Assembly: GCF_010686655.1 (NCBI RefSeq)
Contig: NZ_JAAGVY010000002.1
Coordinates: 62,001 to 126,000 of the forward strand
Length of the DNA: 64,000 bases
DNA from: Cryomorpha ignava
Lineage (GTDB): Bacteria; Bacteroidota; Bacteroidia; Flavobacteriales_D; Cryomorphaceae
Direction: 5' to 3'
Below the pieces are notes generated by a model. That model worked only from the letters and a program-made list of their open reading frames with translations, was not told the DNA's origin and did no database searches. Both the position numbers and the translations under genes were made by a program. Positions 258 to 7,355 of the stretch are shown here, in pieces (position 1 is the stretch's first letter; the number at the start of each line of letters is the position of its first letter).

Positions 258-752
258 ATGGCAACTGAATCAAAAGAAAAAACGTATAGCAAATTGGGTT
301 TTAACAGAGAAGAAGCGAGCGAACTCGCTGAAAGTCTAAACCTTTTACTTTGTAACTATTCTGTAGTTTATCAAAAAATAAGAAACTTTCACTGGAATGT
401 AGTGGGAGGTGACTTTTTTGATGTCCATGAAAAATTGGAAGAAGAATACCTATCAGCGGCAGAAAATATTGACACTGTGGCAGAGCGTGTAAGAGTATTG
501 GGCTTTAAGCCAATCAGCACGCTGGCTGAATATCTTGAAAAAGCAGAAGTGGAAGAAGTTACCGGCGATTTAAGTTCGGATAAAATGATGGAAGAGGTAA
601 TTCAGGATTATGAAGTGCTCTTGTCGTTTATGGTTGATGTTGCCGATTTGGCAGTTGAAAATGGTGACTTGGGAACAGAAACAATAATGCGCTCAATGAT
701 CATCAGAACCGAAGGAAAACACTGGATGTTCTCTGCATTCGTCAAAAAATAA
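258..752 (+). CDS. dps: Dps family ferritin-like DNA-protection protein
   Basis: This 164-residue protein has the size and four-helix pattern of Dps miniferritins, which oxidise and store iron with hydrogen peroxide and shield DNA in stationary phase. The ferroxidase residues are visible with Dps spacing: H45 in NFHWNV, H57, E61, D72 and E76 in IDTVAER. E61 stands where E. coli Dps has Asp67. It is cytoplasmic and acts as a dodecamer in the family. The gene stands alone, with a TAnnTTTG promoter upstream and a strong terminator downstream. The start is the ATG 24 bases after the -7 box. The identification is secure; whether it binds DNA cannot be told, because the N-terminal tail is short and only moderately Lys-rich. 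Confidence 0.93.
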   Translation: MATESKEKTYSKLGFNREEASELAESLNLLLCNYSVVYQKIRNFHWNVVGGDFFDVHEKLEEEYLSAAENIDTVAERVRVLGFKPISTLAEYLEKAEVEEVTGDLSSDKMMEEVIQDYEVLLSFMVDVADLAVENGDLGTETIMRSMIIRTEGKHWMFSAFVKK

Positions 753-798: not shown

Positions 799-949
799 GT
801 GTTATAATAAGTGTTTTATCTCGTTTTACTTGCTGGTAATGCCGTTATTACTGGCTTGCGGAAGTTATTAACAATTTTAAGGATTGCGTTGTCAATAAAT
901 CGCAAATCGACATAGCGATTGGCACGAAACTTGCCTTACCTTGTACAAT

Positions 950-1037
950 AAGCATCTTATTTCATTCAGAACTGGTTATTCTGATTGGTTAAATGATTGG
1001 TTAAAGAGAAAATCCGCCTAACGTGGCGGGTTTTTTT
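950..1037 (+). ncRNA. small RNA, array unit 1 (type A)
   Basis: First of six related units. It begins with the shared core AAGCATCTTATTTCAT (950-965), then a hairpin TCAGAA (966-971) / TTCTGA (979-984) around the 7-nt loop CTGGTTA. Two further TTGGTTA words follow in the probably unpaired part. The unit ends in a terminator, stem CCGCC (1014-1018) / GGCGG (1025-1029) with loop TAACGT and seven T. No sensible reading frame is present. Unlike the other units, no clear TGTAAC-N16-CGTA promoter is visible upstream, so it may use another promoter or be silent. Confidence 0.7.
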
Positions 1038-1119
1038 ATGGGTGTTTGTAATATTAATAGATGCTATGAAACTTGACTCTATGCGTATTTTAACAGAAAG
1101 TCAAAAAGAATGCTAATGA

Positions 1120-1145
1120 TATAACTTTATTATTTATGTTGCGTT
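1120..1145 (+). promoter_or_regulatory. ECF-sigma-like promoter of small RNA unit 2
   Basis: TATAAC (1120-1125), a 16-bp spacer and CGTT (1142-1145). The CGTT lies 15 bases before the conserved AAGCATC core, exactly as in units 3-5. It is the weakest match of the set (TATAAC and CGTT instead of TGTAAC and CGTA). Confidence 0.4.
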
Positions 1146-1156
1146 CATATAGTAGT

Positions 1157-1248
1157 AAGCATCTTATTTCATTTCAGAACTGGTTATTCTGAAAATGGTT
1201 AAAATGATTGGTTAAATCAGAAAACCCGCCTAACGTGGCGGGTTTTTT
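1157..1248 (+). ncRNA. small RNA, array unit 2 (type A)
   Basis: The core AAGCATCTTATTTCAT begins at 1157. An 8-bp perfect stem TTTCAGAA (1172-1179) / TTCTGAAA (1187-1194) closes the loop CTGGTTA (1180-1186). A downstream ATTGGTTAAA word follows. The terminator is AACCCGCC / GGCGGGTT around loop TAACGT, followed by T6, ending near 1248. Units 1, 2 and 6 form one sequence subtype. No open reading frame or ribosome binding site is seen. Confidence 0.75.
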
Positions 1249-1362
1249 GTTTTTAAACACTCAAAGCCGGCATTTCAAATTTGTATTGAAGCTATACTAT
1301 CCTAACACATTTATTCGTGAACTATAAATTACCCTGAATGGTTTGAAAAAAAATGGGGTGGG

Positions 1363-1388
1363 TGTAACCTTTTAAAATAACCCACGTA
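1363..1388 (+). promoter_or_regulatory. ECF-sigma-like promoter of small RNA unit 3
   Basis: TGTAAC (1363-1368), a 16-bp spacer and CGTA (1385-1388). This matches the general form of ECF sigma promoters (AAC-containing -35, CGT-containing -10, for example the Bacillus SigW type). The start of transcription would fall a few bases before the AAGCATC core. Confidence 0.6.
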
Positions 1389-1399
1389 CTATTCCCTGT

Positions 1400-1493
1400 A
1401 AGCATCTTATTTCATAACGGAGCTGGTTACTTCGGAATGGTATTGAATTTAATTGTTTTGAAAAAATCCTGCCCAATGTGGTAGGATTTTTTT
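1400..1493 (+). ncRNA. small RNA, array unit 3 (type B)
   Basis: The core AAGCATCTTATTTCAT (1400-1415) is identical to that of type A. The hairpin has a different stem, CGGAG (1418-1422) / CTTCG (1430-1434), but the same 7-nt loop CTGGTTA (1423-1429). The terminator is ATCCTGCC / GGTAGGAT with one G-U pair, followed by T7. The changed stem with an unchanged loop supports a structured RNA. Confidence 0.8.
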
Positions 1494-1550
1494 GTTAGTG
1501 CGATTTATTGCCGGTCGTTTACTGAAAAAATTCAATTTTTTTCTATCTAG

Positions 1551-1576
1551 CGTAACCTTTTAAAATAACCCACGTA
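1551..1576 (+). promoter_or_regulatory. ECF-sigma-like promoter of small RNA unit 4
   Basis: CGTAAC (1551-1556), a 16-bp spacer and CGTA (1573-1576). An AT-rich tract (1528-1546) lies directly upstream, as at unit 5. Confidence 0.6.
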
Positions 1577-1587
1577 ATATCCCCTGT

Positions 1588-1681
1588 AAGCATCTTATTT
1601 CATAACGGAGCTGGTTACTTCGGAATGGTATTGAATTTAATTGTTTTGAAAAAATCCTGCCCAATGTGGCAGGATTTTTTT
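1588..1681 (+). ncRNA. small RNA, array unit 4 (type B)
   Basis: Nearly identical to unit 3. The core starts at 1588, the stem is CGGAG (1606-1610) / CTTCG (1618-1622), and the loop is CTGGTTA. The one difference, T to C in the terminator arm, turns the G-U pair of unit 3 into a perfect ATCCTGCC / GGCAGGAT stem. Confidence 0.8.
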
Positions 1682-1738
1682 GTTAGAGTGTTTTCTTGCC
1701 GATCGTTTATTGAAAAAAATCAATTTTTTTCTATCTAG

Positions 1739-1764
1739 CGTAACCTTTTAAAATAACCCACGTA
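1739..1764 (+). promoter_or_regulatory. ECF-sigma-like promoter of small RNA unit 5
   Basis: CGTAAC (1739-1744), a 16-bp spacer and CGTA (1761-1764); same sequence as the unit 4 promoter. Confidence 0.6.
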
Positions 1765-1775
1765 ATATCCCCTGT

Positions 1776-1870
1776 AAGCATCTTATTTCATAACGGAGCT
1801 GGTTACTTCGGAATGGTATTGAATTTAATTGTTTTGAAAAAATCCTGTCCATGTGGCAGGATTTTTTTTT
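1776..1870 (+). ncRNA. small RNA, array unit 5 (type B)
   Basis: Core at 1776, stem CGGAG (1794-1798) / CTTCG (1806-1810), loop CTGGTTA. In the terminator loop one base is lost and one changed relative to unit 4, but the ATCCTG / CAGGAT stem and a longer T run remain, so termination should be kept. Confidence 0.8.
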
Positions 1871-1986
1871 GCTTCCGTTTTTATTTTTGCTACTTACCTA
1901 ATACATTATGGCATTCCTTAATAATAAGTAACAGTTCAAGAATAAAAGACTGTTATTTGATTACTTATGAGTGAAACAAAATAAAC

Positions 1987-2013
1987 TGTAACCTTTTAAA
2001 CGAAAAGCACGTA
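1987..2013 (+). promoter_or_regulatory. ECF-sigma-like promoter of small RNA unit 6
   Basis: TGTAAC (1987-1992), a 17-bp spacer and CGTA (2010-2013). GTAACCTTTTAAA is shared with units 3-5, although the rest of the upstream region is unrelated, which points to selection on this box. Confidence 0.6.
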
Positions 2014-2022
2014 TCTCAAGAC

Positions 2023-2116
2023 AAGCATCTTATTTCATTCTCTTCAGGATTGGTTATTCTGAATTGGTTAATTGATTGGTTAAAACAGAAAACCCGCCTA
2101 ACGTGGCGGGTTTTTT
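2023..2116 (+). ncRNA. small RNA, array unit 6 (type A)
   Basis: The core AAGCATCTTATTTCAT begins at 2023. The hairpin is TTCAGGA (2043-2049) / TTCTGAA (2057-2063), with one G-U pair and the loop TTGGTTA, again 7 nt. Two more TTGGTTA-like words follow. The terminator is AACCCGCC / GGCGGGTT around TAACGT, then T6. It resembles units 1 and 2 more than units 3-5. Confidence 0.78.
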
Positions 2117-2143
2117 GCTTTTAAAAAAGGATGTTTCAAAAGG

Positions 2144-3001
2144 TTATTTAGTTTCAATAACCAAATACTTTGATGTAGACCAAAACTCAATTGGTTTTGT
2201 GATTTTCAATACTTTTTCATTTTCACCTTCCAGGGTATAGCTACCTTCGGGATGCACAGTAACAAGTTTTACGTCTTCTGCATTTAAAGCCAGGCTGGTA
2301 AATTTTGTGATATCAACCTTGGCAAAAAAGTCTTTATTGAAATTATCTTTAAGTTGCTTGGTTCCTCCAAGACCTATAACTGTGCCGTCTTTTTCAAGTA
2401 CGCCGTTGTCTTTTAGGTCTTTAAAAGTTCCCATAGCATAATATGCTGTATTTAATTCATTAGATTGCATAGCAATCATGTCGCTTTGAATTTCAGTTCT
2501 GAATTCGGCAGAATCAAGCATCTCATTTAATATTTCTATTGTAAAGTTAGCAGCGGTTAGATTTTCCTTTAAATAAGAAATTTCTTCCTCTTTGCTATCA
2601 ATATCAGAGCTTAGCTGGTCAATCATTTTCTTAAATCCGGCAGTTTGTGTGCCGTATTTGCTTACCCGCGACTTTAAATTGTCAATCGTAGATTTATTCT
2701 CTTGAAGCAAGTTGTTAATTGCTTGAATATCTCTGGTTATTTCGTCGCGAGACTCTGGGCTTTCTTCTAATTCACTGTTCAGAGATATTTCTTTTTCACG
2801 TTCACTAATTAAGCCCAGGTTGCGCTGAATGGTGGTAAAGCTTTCTTCAAACAATTTTAGAGTTGAATCTTTAGCTGTAACTTCTTGAGAAAGTGCTTTG
2901 TTTTCTTCTCGAAGTTTTGCAAGTTCCTGTTCAGTTTCTTCATTCGTACAAGATGCAAGACTGGCACCAATAAAAACAATTAAGAGCATTTTTTTTATCA
3001 T
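2144..3001 (-). CDS. coiled-coil lipoprotein of unknown function
   Basis: The start is the ATG at 3001, not the longer frame, because MIKKMLLIVFIGASLASC is a clean lipoprotein signal with lipobox LASC. The lipidated Cys is followed by a long Glu/Lys-rich heptad region (about residues 20-190) that should form a coiled coil. A C-terminal globular part of about 100 residues is predicted to be periplasmic. Lipoproteins of this layout, with a C-terminal part containing a YYAxG motif, are common in Bacteroidota, but I know no function for them. The gene runs towards the small RNA array and its stop is only about 25 bases from the terminator of unit 6, which could also stop transcription from this side. 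Confidence 0.8.
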   Translation of the reverse strand: MIKKMLLIVFIGASLASCTNEETEQELAKLREENKALSQEVTAKDSTLKLFEESFTTIQRNLGLISEREKEISLNSELEESPESRDEITRDIQAINNLLQENKSTIDNLKSRVSKYGTQTAGFKKMIDQLSSDIDSKEEEISYLKENLTAANFTIEILNEMLDSAEFRTEIQSDMIAMQSNELNTAYYAMGTFKDLKDNGVLEKDGTVIGLGGTKQLKDNFNKDFFAKVDITKFTSLALNAEDVKLVTVHPEGSYTLEGENEKVLKITKPIEFWSTSKYLVIETK

Positions 3002-3224: not shown

Positions 3225-6200
3225 TTGAAAAGACCAATTCCGTTTTTAGTATTGTTTGAGTGTTTAATTCACTGCTTTTTTATTTCAGATTTATTTGCCC
3301 AGTCATCGCTTACAGCAAATGCTGAACAATATGTGCAAGAAGAATGGACTGTTGAAAATGGGCTTTCTGTAGGGCATATAAATCAAATTTATCAAACACC
3401 CGATGGTTATATTTGGCTCGCTACATTTAACGGGCTTATCCGTTTTGATGGATTGCGGTTTACCCTATTCGATGTAAGCAATACCCCTGAACTACCCTCT
3501 AATAGAATCGTGCTCTTGCAACCAGGTCAGGGCAATAGTTTCTGGTTGTTTACAGAACAACGCGATATTTTACATGTTGAAAACAATCGCTATCTGCAGC
3601 ATGGTCCGTTTCTAAGTATTGAGCATCAGAGAGTTATTCTCGATGGCGACTCGCTTAGCTGGGTTACTTCGCGAAGTGGTTTGAAAAAATTAGTGAATGA
3701 TTCCTTAGTACCCTGCACGTTTGCGCAACTGAATAGCAAGGACGTTTTATCTGTTTTTCGTGCCAAAAACGGTGAGTTAATAGTGACCACAAAGACGGGA
3801 GCAATTTATAAGACCAGATTTCCGTATAGCGAGTTGATCAAAATAGCCGAATTTTCAGAGTCCAATAGTACAGAGAATGTGATGGAAGACCGTGAGGGCT
3901 CAATTTATCTTTATAATAATTATGTGCGTAAAATTTCTGACGATAGTACGCTTATATTCAATCAAACCAATACCACTTCTGAAAATTGGAGCGGCGTATC
4001 GCCCTTGTATTACAATTTAATGGAAGATAATAATGGGGTGAAATGGACTATTACTGAAACCGGGTTTTTCCGTCTGACTCAATCCGGCTTTAAGCTAATT
4101 CAAAAATACAACCATGTTTCTCCCGAAAGCAGTGAAAGGCAAGGTGCGGGTATGTGTAAATGTTCTGATGGAACAGTGTGGGCAGTAGTAAATAAAAATG
4201 TCTATAAAAATGGTGTTGAGCAGTTTGAGCTAAATCAAAACGGTGCCACAATTTTCTGTGATAGCGAAATGAGCATTTGGATAACAAACAGAATTAATGG
4301 CGTGCAGCGATTTAGCGAATCCTTATTAAAGTCTTATAAATCAAAAGAATCTGAAAATAATTTTTATGGAATTTTTCAGGATTATTCGGGCAAAATCTGG
4401 TTTGGAGAATGGATTCAATCTTTATACTCATTAGGTAAAAGTGAGCAGGTTATTGAGGAGCCTGTGGCACCGGATGTGGGAGTTACAGCAGCGTTTGCAG
4501 AAGATCAAAAGCATAACTTATATATTGGTCCGTACCACATTGAAGACTATGATTGCAGAGGTTGTTCTAATGCCAAGAGGTTGCCCGGACTCCCAAATGA
4601 AGTTTTCGCTATTCACCCACTAAGTGATTCAGCCATTTATTTTGGAACACTTCAAGGTCTTTATTTTTACGATGGTGAAGTGGGAAAACAGATTAGTGAT
4701 GGAGATGAAATTCCAGATTTCGCTGTACGTTATATTTTAGAAACTAGTAACTCCAATTTGTGGCTTGCTACAAACGGCAGTGGTGTTCGAAATTTTAATT
4801 ATGCAACTCGCAAAAACAAGTATTATAATACCAAAAATGGTTTGTCTAGTGACAATGTGCGCGCATTAATGGAAGATGCTGATGGCTATATTTGGGCGGC
4901 AACAGAAGATGTTGGATTGAACAGAATAAATCCGAAAACCGATGAGATTGTTTGGATTCAAAAAAAAGATGGACTTTACGAGGATGGATTGCACAGTTTA
5001 TTGCTCGACGATTATAATCGGTTATGGATGTCAACCAATCAAGGGATTTTTTGGATTGATTTTGCCGAACTATCCGCTTTCGCAAATGGAAACGAAGGAA
5101 AGCTTCGTTCTACGGTATATACAGAGCGCGACGGAATGCCTAACCGTGAGGCAAATGGAGGGTTTCAGAATAGTGCCATGAAATCTGAAGATGGAAAGCT
5201 TTGGTTTTCAACACAGAAAGGAGTCGTTTGTGTAGATCCTTCCAAGATAAATCGCAATTTGCCGTTGCCACCGGTTGTTATCGAAAGAATTAGCTCAAAT
5301 GATAGCACACTATATCTTCTCGAAGATGAGCTCATTCTTTCAAAAGACCAGCAGAATTTAATTATCGGTTTTACGACACCCTCTTTTTTGGCACCCAACC
5401 GCATACGGTTTAAGTACAGACTGGCAGGATTTGATACTGACTGGGTAGAAAGTGGTTCGCGCCGGGAAGCAATATTTACCAATCTCCCTGCTGGAAATTA
5501 TAAATTCGAAGTGGCATCATCATACGAGGGAGATTTTGACAATGCTTCGATCACATCGTTTAATATAGTGAAGGAGCCTAAATTAAGTGAAAGGTGGTGG
5601 CCATGGGTTTTAGCTGTTATTGTGGGGCTTCTTATAATATACGCTATCCTAAAATGGCGGCTTCATCAATTGCATCGCCAGCAATTACACCTTGAAAAAG
5701 AAGTCGCTTCTCGCACCCGCGATTTGGAAGCTGAAAAACGAATTACCGAAGCACAAAAAGAGAAATTATTACTCCTCGATCGGGAAAAAAGCAGATTCTT
5801 TGCAAATGTGTCACACGAGTTTAGAACGCCCTTAACACTGATTATTTCGCCTCTTCGCGATCTGCAAAATTCGGCTTCCGCCAATAACCTTACTCAATAC
5901 GCAAAAAATCAAATTGATACGGGGTTAAAGAATGCAACCCGCCTTATGCGGCTCGTAGAGCAATTGCTCGATATTGCACGTCTTGAAGCAAAAAAGCTAC
6001 AGTTGGATTTTCAAATACTAGAGATTAATGAATACATCCGTGATTTGGGAGAATCATTTATTGGATTGGCTGAGGTAAAGCATATTAAATTGAAAATTTC
6101 AATCGAAGACGATCGCTTGTTTATGCGCTATGATCCAGATCAATTGGATAAAATCGTTGTTAACTTATTATCTAACGCTTTTAAATTTACACCAGCCGAT

Positions 6201-7355
6201 GGTGAGATTCATCTCGATTTAAGGTCTGACAATCAATTGGTGTTTATTTCTGTAGCCGACACGGGTAGGGGGTTAGCACCTGAGAATTTACCGCATCTAT
6301 TTGATCGTTTCTTTCAAGTTGAAAAATCTGAGTTGCAGCCAGGATCGGGTATTGGGCTATCTATTGCCAAAGAACTCACGCAACTTCATGATGGTAAAAT
6401 TGAAGTGAGTAGTGAAATGGGAATTGGCAGCACCTTCACACTAAGCTTTCCCCTGGTAAGGCGAGAAAAAAATGACCCGCCGGTTAGGGAAGCTGCTCAC
6501 CGTGATTTCGCCCCGCATGAAGCAATGATCGAATTTGAAGCAGATGAACCAAGAATTAAAACCGAAGACTTAAATGGTGATTCGGCTCCTAAAAAAACGA
6601 TACTAATCGTTGATGACAATTTAGATATAAGGAATTATGTAGCAGATAATTTCAAAGCTGATTATGATATCGTGCAGGCAGAATCGGGATCAGAAGCGCT
6701 GAATAAAATAACAAATCACCTTCCCGATCTGATTATTTCTGATGTAATGATGCCAGACGGAGATGGTCTGGAATTGCTCGAGGCGATAAGAGCTGAGCCT
6801 GAATTTGCATATTTGCCGGTTATTTTGCTTACTGCCAAAGCTGAAGTAAGTGATAAGTTGGAAGGCTTGAAAATTGGCGCAGATGACTACTTAACCAAGC
6901 CATTTGATATCATGGAGTTAAAATTACGGGTTAGTAACATCTTGCTTTCGCGGATGCGGCTTCAAAAATATTTTTTAAATACAAGTTCTTCTGAACCAAT
7001 TAAAATCCAATCCTTATCAGTAAATGTGCCATCTCAAGATACCGAATTTATTAGTCAATTGGGTGAAACTATTCACCAGAATTTCACAGATGAGGCGTTC
7101 TCGGTTGAAAAACTAGCGAGCTTAATGGGGCAGAGCCGTAGTAATCTTTACAGAAAGGTTATAGCACTTACAGATGAATCGCCAAGCGAAACTTTAAAAC
7201 GCGTTCGGCTGGAACATGCAGCACAACTCTTAAAACAAAATGCGGGGAGCATTAGCGAAATAGCTTATGCAAGCGGTTTTAATAGCATCTCTCATTTCTC
7301 AAAAAGCTTCAAAATTGCATATAATGTTTCGCCAACAGTATATTCGCAAGAATAA
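3225..7355 (+). CDS. hybrid two-component system protein (propeller sensor, kinase, receiver, AraC regulator)
   Basis: This one-protein signalling system has a signal peptide (cut near LFAQ, residue 25), a periplasmic ligand-binding region of two_comp propeller repeats (about 35-690), a Y_Y_Y domain (about 714-773) and a membrane segment (about 791-813). Then come a HisKA domain with H864 in NVSHEFRTPL, an ATPase domain with N box VVNLLSNAFKF, a receiver with phospho-acceptor D1173 in ISDVMMPDG, and a C-terminal AraC-type DNA-binding domain (about 1272-1376). In Bacteroides these sense polysaccharide fragments and switch on nearby utilisation genes. No susC/susD pair or glycoside hydrolase lies next to it here, so its target is unclear. 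The start is a TTG giving MKRPIPF; no in-frame ATG precedes the signal peptide. Confidence 0.93.
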   Translation: MKRPIPFLVLFECLIHCFFISDLFAQSSLTANAEQYVQEEWTVENGLSVGHINQIYQTPDGYIWLATFNGLIRFDGLRFTLFDVSNTPELPSNRIVLLQPGQGNSFWLFTEQRDILHVENNRYLQHGPFLSIEHQRVILDGDSLSWVTSRSGLKKLVNDSLVPCTFAQLNSKDVLSVFRAKNGELIVTTKTGAIYKTRFPYSELIKIAEFSESNSTENVMEDREGSIYLYNNYVRKISDDSTLIFNQTNTTSENWSGVSPLYYNLMEDNNGVKWTITETGFFRLTQSGFKLIQKYNHVSPESSERQGAGMCKCSDGTVWAVVNKNVYKNGVEQFELNQNGATIFCDSEMSIWITNRINGVQRFSESLLKSYKSKESENNFYGIFQDYSGKIWFGEWIQSLYSLGKSEQVIEEPVAPDVGVTAAFAEDQKHNLYIGPYHIEDYDCRGCSNAKRLPGLPNEVFAIHPLSDSAIYFGTLQGLYFYDGEVGKQISDGDEIPDFAVRYILETSNSNLWLATNGSGVRNFNYATRKNKYYNTKNGLSSDNVRALMEDADGYIWAATEDVGLNRINPKTDEIVWIQKKDGLYEDGLHSLLLDDYNRLWMSTNQGIFWIDFAELSAFANGNEGKLRSTVYTERDGMPNREANGGFQNSAMKSEDGKLWFSTQKGVVCVDPSKINRNLPLPPVVIERISSNDSTLYLLEDELILSKDQQNLIIGFTTPSFLAPNRIRFKYRLAGFDTDWVESGSRREAIFTNLPAGNYKFEVASSYEGDFDNASITSFNIVKEPKLSERWWPWVLAVIVGLLIIYAILKWRLHQLHRQQLHLEKEVASRTRDLEAEKRITEAQKEKLLLLDREKSRFFANVSHEFRTPLTLIISPLRDLQNSASANNLTQYAKNQIDTGLKNATRLMRLVEQLLDIARLEAKKLQLDFQILEINEYIRDLGESFIGLAEVKHIKLKISIEDDRLFMRYDPDQLDKIVVNLLSNAFKFTPADGEIHLDLRSDNQLVFISVADTGRGLAPENLPHLFDRFFQVEKSELQPGSGIGLSIAKELTQLHDGKIEVSSEMGIGSTFTLSFPLVRREKNDPPVREAAHRDFAPHEAMIEFEADEPRIKTEDLNGDSAPKKTILIVDDNLDIRNYVADNFKADYDIVQAESGSEALNKITNHLPDLIISDVMMPDGDGLELLEAIRAEPEFAYLPVILLTAKAEVSDKLEGLKIGADDYLTKPFDIMELKLRVSNILLSRMRLQKYFLNTSSSEPIKIQSLSVNVPSQDTEFISQLGETIHQNFTDEAFSVEKLASLMGQSRSNLYRKVIALTDESPSETLKRVRLEHAAQLLKQNAGSISEIAYASGFNSISHFSKSFKIAYNVSPTVYSQE

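Follow-up and report, generated by a model that had tools for sequence, protein, structure and literature searches.

A conserved tandem array of six putative sibling small RNA genes with ECF-type and sigma54-type promoter elements downstream of dps in Cryomorpha ignava

The interval between dps and a convergent coiled-coil lipoprotein gene, located within the 64,000-nt stretch of Cryomorpha ignava DNA analysed here (the window), contains six putative small RNA (sRNA) units arranged in tandem. As far as sequence tells, these units represent a conserved and undescribed sRNA gene family; the initial annotation, which had proposed six copies of one design, was right and understated the case. The explanation we prefer, with a probability of roughly 55%, is that they are ECF-induced sibling sRNAs of about 90 nt, encoded by separate genes, which pair with mRNAs through an exposed 5' core and carry UGGUUA repeats on which a hypothetical protein would dock. 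Conservation, structure, terminators and promoter elements form the sequence evidence, and we infer the other steps of the mechanism. The features of the locus are listed below.

258..752, + strand: dps / ferritin-like gene (PF00210, E 1e-20), the conserved upstream neighbour
920..934, + strand: sigma54-type promoter of copy 1, TGGCACG-AAAC-TTGC, 0 mismatches, -30 from the core
946..1036, + strand: sRNA copy 1; core 950-965, hairpin loop 974-980, terminator about 1007-1036
1121..1144, + strand: ECF-type promoter of copy 2, ATAAC-N16-CGT, one mismatch
1153..1249, + strand: sRNA copy 2; core 1157-1172, terminator 1218-1249
1364..1387, + strand: ECF-type promoter of copy 3, GTAAC-N16-CGT
1396..1493, + strand: sRNA copy 3; core 1400-1415
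1552..1575, + strand: ECF-type promoter of copy 4, exact ECF type
1584..1681, + strand: sRNA copy 4; core 1588-1603
1740..1763, + strand: ECF-type promoter of copy 5, exact ECF type
1772..1869, + strand: sRNA copy 5; core 1776-1791
1988..2012, + strand: ECF-type promoter of copy 6, GTAAC-N17-CGT
2019..2117, + strand: sRNA copy 6; core 2023-2038, terminator hairpin 2089-2114
2144..3001, - strand: coiled-coil lipoprotein gene, the convergent neighbour, conserved in 5 of the 7 genomes with an array at dps

The 16-nt core AAGCATCTTATTTCAT is exact at each of the six positions at which copies had been reported (950, 1157, 1400, 1588, 1776 and 2023). A search of the whole 5.0-Mb genome found no exact core and no strong match to the family model outside the array, the runner-up having an E value of 0.016. 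All six copies contain a hairpin with a YTGGTTA loop and, as previously described, a terminator; the terminator hairpin of copy 6 (2089-2114) can also be read as that of the convergent lipoprotein gene, and dps is followed by a terminator of its own (768-795). A recent tandem duplication of 188 bp gave rise to copies 3-5, which are 88-99% identical, while the remaining pairs share 61-75%. Shortly past the lipoprotein gene, a 1376-aa open frame begins (window 3225-7355) that resembles, by its sequence, a hybrid two-component regulator in one protein, with sensor repeats, a histidine kinase, a receiver and an AraC-type helix-turn-helix.

Two kinds of promoter element are mixed in the array: copies 3-6 possess an exact ECF-type element, copy 2 an ECF-type element with one mismatch, and copy 1 a sigma54-type element. 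GTAAC-N16/17-CGT has the layout of an ECF-sigma promoter, with GTAAC at -35 and CGT at -10. Within 12-18 nt upstream of the core, a range chosen after the sequences had been inspected, it was found exactly in 14 of the 23 copies of the family (0 in shuffled upstream regions) and with at most one mismatch in 18 (0.2 in shuffles). An earlier, narrower range of 14-20 nt gave an ECF promoter in 12 of 23 copies, compared with 0.04 in shuffles. In F. psychrophilum, T9SS genes as well as one sRNA, Rfp11, are under the control of a CGT-box ECF motif (PMC9723704). The TGGCACG-N4-TTGC element of copy 1 is a perfect sigma54 consensus. In G004, G006 and G002 the first copy is preceded by a corresponding element with two mismatches, and in G001 by one with three, all located at -27 to -31; two mismatches or fewer occurred in 7 of 4600 shuffled upstream regions. 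Because copy 1 alone has a complete GC in its -12 element, the promoters of the relatives are called sigma54-like. The rpoN gene was found in all eight genomes of the family, and both promoter kinds would place the transcription start 3-4 nt upstream of the core.

Matches to the strict ECF pattern are few in these genomes. Apart from the arrays, five genomes of the family have one about 300 nt upstream of an OmpA-family gene (L163 8042-8066, with equivalents in L164, L165, L166 and L100), which points to an envelope regulon. The long leader of this gene, in which the blocks GGTTGCC and TTGTCGA..GTTCRTGGA are conserved, might represent a regulated 5' UTR. No ECF gene carrying a GTAAC-N16/17-CGT promoter was identified in 1.27 Mb of this genome. 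Two further candidate sites were discarded: an ECF-like site beginning GTAACCTTTGG, common to five genomes, lies within a coding gene and is therefore conserved for protein reasons, and a supposed antisense ECF promoter in GGTTAC lacks, by eye, a correctly spaced CGT.

As whole units, the copies are more stably folded than every one of 200 dinucleotide shuffles, with z values of -3.0 to -4.6. Folded individually, copies 3-6 have a minimum-energy structure that does not exactly match the drawn hairpin, which is given for these copies because covariation, and not single-sequence folding, supports it. In an alignment of 21 sequences, fitted to the model and thus biased towards it, 98.1% of pair cells are paired, and two-sided changes were observed in 12 of the 15 pairs of hairpin and terminator. 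All five covariation measures exceeded 500 of 500 shuffles, and the signal was gone once the partners were slid by one base. Compensatory hairpin changes are also visible in the raw sequences (CAGAA/UUCUG, CAGAG/CUCUG, CGGAG/CUUCG, CGGGG/CCCCG). The loop had been described as invariant, which applies to the six array copies but not to their relatives, where an 8-nt AGUGGUUA, CUAAAUA and GUUC were observed and two copies have no hairpin. The initial proposal of six separate transcription units of one family fits the promoter element and terminator found at each copy, together with the conservation and covariation.

A first family model, built from the six window copies as had been suggested, identified 15 further strong copies in six of the family's seven other genomes, with 2-4 in each, and no comparable matches in other families of the order (52 genomes). 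At high scores, a second model searched against 399 genomes of the order left this picture unchanged. The array also occupies the dps locus in six other genomes of the family, with synteny spanning five genera. The gene order ahead of every dps-linked array is WG-repeat protein, pyridoxal decarboxylase and dps; on the other side, the array ends before the same convergent lipoprotein gene in 5 of 7 genomes. In G007, the only genome without a match, the contig stops within dps, so that the absence is only apparent. G002 contains a second array away from dps (L066), and G003 has two short copies (L074 2295-2625) that lost the hairpin and kept the promoter, the core, one UUGGUUA and the terminator. 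Over the 23 copies, the first 10 core bases are almost always constant, whereas the stems vary. Exact-pattern matches in Sinanaerobacter and an alphaproteobacterial MAG, with neither terminator nor promoter, were attributed to chance; phage carriage was rejected, the single viral-contig match being located in coding-like sequence without a terminator.

The 188-bp tandem duplication behind copies 3-5 could also be taken as the mark of a non-genic repeat, that is, of a stack of terminators or of a mobile repeat that expanded at one site. This reading is hardly credible given the synteny over five genera, the compensatory changes in the stems, and the retention of promoter and core in copies that have diverged to 61-75% identity.

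UGGUUA occurs 52 times in the 23 RNAs, compared with 1.0 expected. The usual layout comprises three occurrences at steps of about 13 nt, one in the hairpin loop and two in the linker, while a single one is present in copies 3-5 and in four of the relatives' copies. Related RNAs were found elsewhere in the order. Weak matches to the second model led to g40, a genus of family f9, in which six genomes contain about 17 copies with the same ECF promoter and a terminator, partly in tandem (L171-L177). These RNAs have a different conserved 5' end, GUGUGAUUUGUUUU, followed by two UUGGUUAA, and appear to form a separate multi-copy sRNA family of the plan GTGTGATTTGTTTTTTTGGTTAATTAATGGATTTGGTTAA plus terminator. 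In three g40 genomes, a second ECF site precedes a nearby gene for an amino-acid permease. Two genomes of family f2 each carry a single UUGGUUA RNA with an ECF promoter (L167 5361-5421, L168 3358-3418) and a 5' end of AACAAGCCCAUCU followed by UUGGUUAAUAGAUUGGUUAA, directly 3' of the pyridoxal decarboxylase gene that, in the window's family, lies before dps. Single RNAs of the same plan are present in two more f9 genomes (G157 and G045).

Promoter plus motif was also matched beyond g40 and the window's family. Four of these matches are followed immediately by a strong terminator, a feature of 0.7% of random 80-nt stretches under a strict rule that misses the g40 terminators and one f1 terminator, both plain by eye. 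On the basis of these terminator-backed matches, three further lineages are claimed besides g40; the other matches have no terminator and are likely due to chance. A tentative extension, possible though somewhat doubtful, is an order-wide class of ECF-controlled sRNAs in Flavobacteriales, with a fixed UUGGUUA module and terminator, exchangeable 5' seeds and an undiscovered RNA-binding protein that substitutes for Hfq.

After the hairpin of copy 1, ATGATTGGTTAA reads Met-Ile-Gly-stop, and of the 21 copies in the covariance set, 17 retain this 12-mer with a TAA or TGA stop. Such recurrence would suit a dual or coding RNA in which the linker ATG ATT GGT TAA (Met-Ile-Gly-stop) is translated and binds or stalls ribosomes. 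The UGGUUA motif accounts for the 12-mer equally well, however, and the 12-mer is missing in copies 3-5 and in the f2 and g40 RNAs and has a TTG start in copy 6, making this explanation very unlikely.

Pairing of the core at the start regions of 933 genes in 1.27 Mb of the genome showed no significant excess, with 142 genes at or below -10 kcal/mol compared with 96 +/- 33 for shuffled seeds. An ortholog pairing test of 158 pairs from part of G001 was likewise negative (5 versus 4.7 in shuffles). Two leads, each a predicted single match, are a 241-aa secreted protein (C1:40838, pairing at the start codon, -17.9 kcal/mol) and an ABC exporter (C5:25015, -18.0 kcal/mol). The lipoprotein mRNA (window 2516-2531) could form about 14 bp with the core at -16.5 kcal/mol (0 of 100 shuffles); it was rejected as a target because the pairing is not conserved in the four relatives tested. 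Counted across the window's genome with the array left aside, exact complements of the 10-nt core numbered 11, compared with 13 for the reversed control, and so showed no excess.

This negative search leaves room for a serious rival, which we nevertheless consider rather unlikely: the RNAs may chiefly titrate an RNA-binding protein via UGGUUA, the core serving as a stability or entry element. The placement of the repeats in the loop and in single-stranded linker, their spacing of about 13 nt and their presence in RNAs with differing 5' ends are in line with such a role, whereas the core is better conserved than the loop, copies 3-5 and four in relatives have only one repeat, and UGGUUA is not enriched in mRNA start regions of the sampled genome.

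Hfq was absent from all 12 genomes tested. RRM_1 (PF00076) was absent from all eight genomes of the window's family, with a positive Bacteroides control, and from the f2 genome tested; the f9 genomes do have an RRM protein. With both absent from the window's family, the FopS/RbpB scheme is not simply transferable, and the putative UGGUUA-binding protein there would be neither Hfq nor an RRM protein.

In the preferred reading, that of ECF-induced sibling sRNAs, an ECF sigma factor recognizing GTAAC-N16/17-CGT would turn on most copies, while sigma54 would read the first copy of the array, giving one RNA two regulatory inputs. The free and nearly invariant 5' core suggests a seed-like anatomy: the unpaired UAAGCAUCUUA, beginning 3-4 nt past the predicted start, would be the mRNA-pairing seed, and its targets would probably be envelope-protein mRNAs, by analogy with other ECF-dependent sRNAs. 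The UGGUUA repeats, of which the hairpin loop presents one and the linker one or two, about 13 nt apart, may provide docking for a protein that is neither Hfq nor RRM, and the multiple copies would yield higher dosage and combined inputs.

Against Rfam, no match above the gathering threshold was obtained in the window or in 14 related loci, and the novelty of the family survived this check; matches at a low threshold look like terminator resemblances. The position next to the stress gene dps, the recurrence of the array in relatives, the stress-type promoter of most copies and the lack of any matching RNA family together suggest a previously undescribed group of stress-controlled regulatory sRNAs, in bacteria devoid of the usual RNA helper proteins. 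The open-access papers searched contained no description of the UGGUUA motif or the sRNA family, most subscription papers lying outside this scope.

The Qrr RNAs of Vibrio comprise several siblings with sigma54 promoters that are Hfq-dependent and controlled by LuxO. The array resembles them in its sibling copies and the sigma54 promoter of copy 1 but is unrelated in sequence, with no Rfam match, and Hfq is absent here (12 of 12 genomes). CsrB/RsmZ RNAs titrate CsrA via many GGA motifs in loops; a short motif repeated in hairpin loop and single strand is shared, yet here it is UGGUUA instead of GGA with far fewer repeats, and the rsmX model gives the window RNAs 14-17 bits against a threshold of 56, which speaks against membership in CsrB/Rsm. 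MicA and RybB of enterobacteria are sigmaE-dependent sRNAs, and by its promoters (14 of 23 exact) the family would belong with such ECF-dependent sRNAs. FoxI and FoxJ of Fusobacterium are sigmaE-dependent sRNAs in a host without Hfq or ProQ (PMC11005410). They share with the array an ECF promoter in a Gram-negative bacterium without Hfq and differ in being two unlike sRNAs, not a tandem family, with no sequence relation and no UGGUUA repeats described. Rfp11 of F. psychrophilum, conserved in other species, is an sRNA with an ECF-type (CGT box) promoter (PMC9723704); compared by promoter description, both are flavobacterial with ECF-type promoters, Rfp11 being a single gene.

The initial annotation knew of no multi-copy family with this core and loop in Bacteroidota. 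FopS of Bacteroides is a multi-copy family, with 14 members (9 intergenic, 4 antisense and 1 3'-UTR-derived; PMC11697453), and the statement has to be amended accordingly; FopS has, however, another seed, another promoter and another protein partner. FopS/GibS and the array are both multi-copy sibling sRNAs of the same phylum with a conserved 5' seed region (PMC11697453), with six paralogous copies here and 2-4 in relatives. The GibS model RF04182 gives the window RNAs 20.6 bits against a threshold of 115, which argues against kinship. FopS/GibS promoters are of the sigmaABfr type, in contrast to ECF in most copies and sigma54 in copy 1 here; the FopS members are intergenic, antisense or 3'-UTR-derived, whereas the copies here form one tandem array; and RbpB (RRM-1), the partner of FopS/GibS, has no counterpart in the window's family. 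As read from the sequences, what sets the array apart from these systems is not a new principle but the unusual promoter split and a module spanning families of the order. It offers a compact, conserved RNA set bearing on sRNA regulation in Bacteroidota without Hfq or RRM, with a probable sigma-factor switch and with UGGUUA repeats that could serve as a specific bait for the missing protein.
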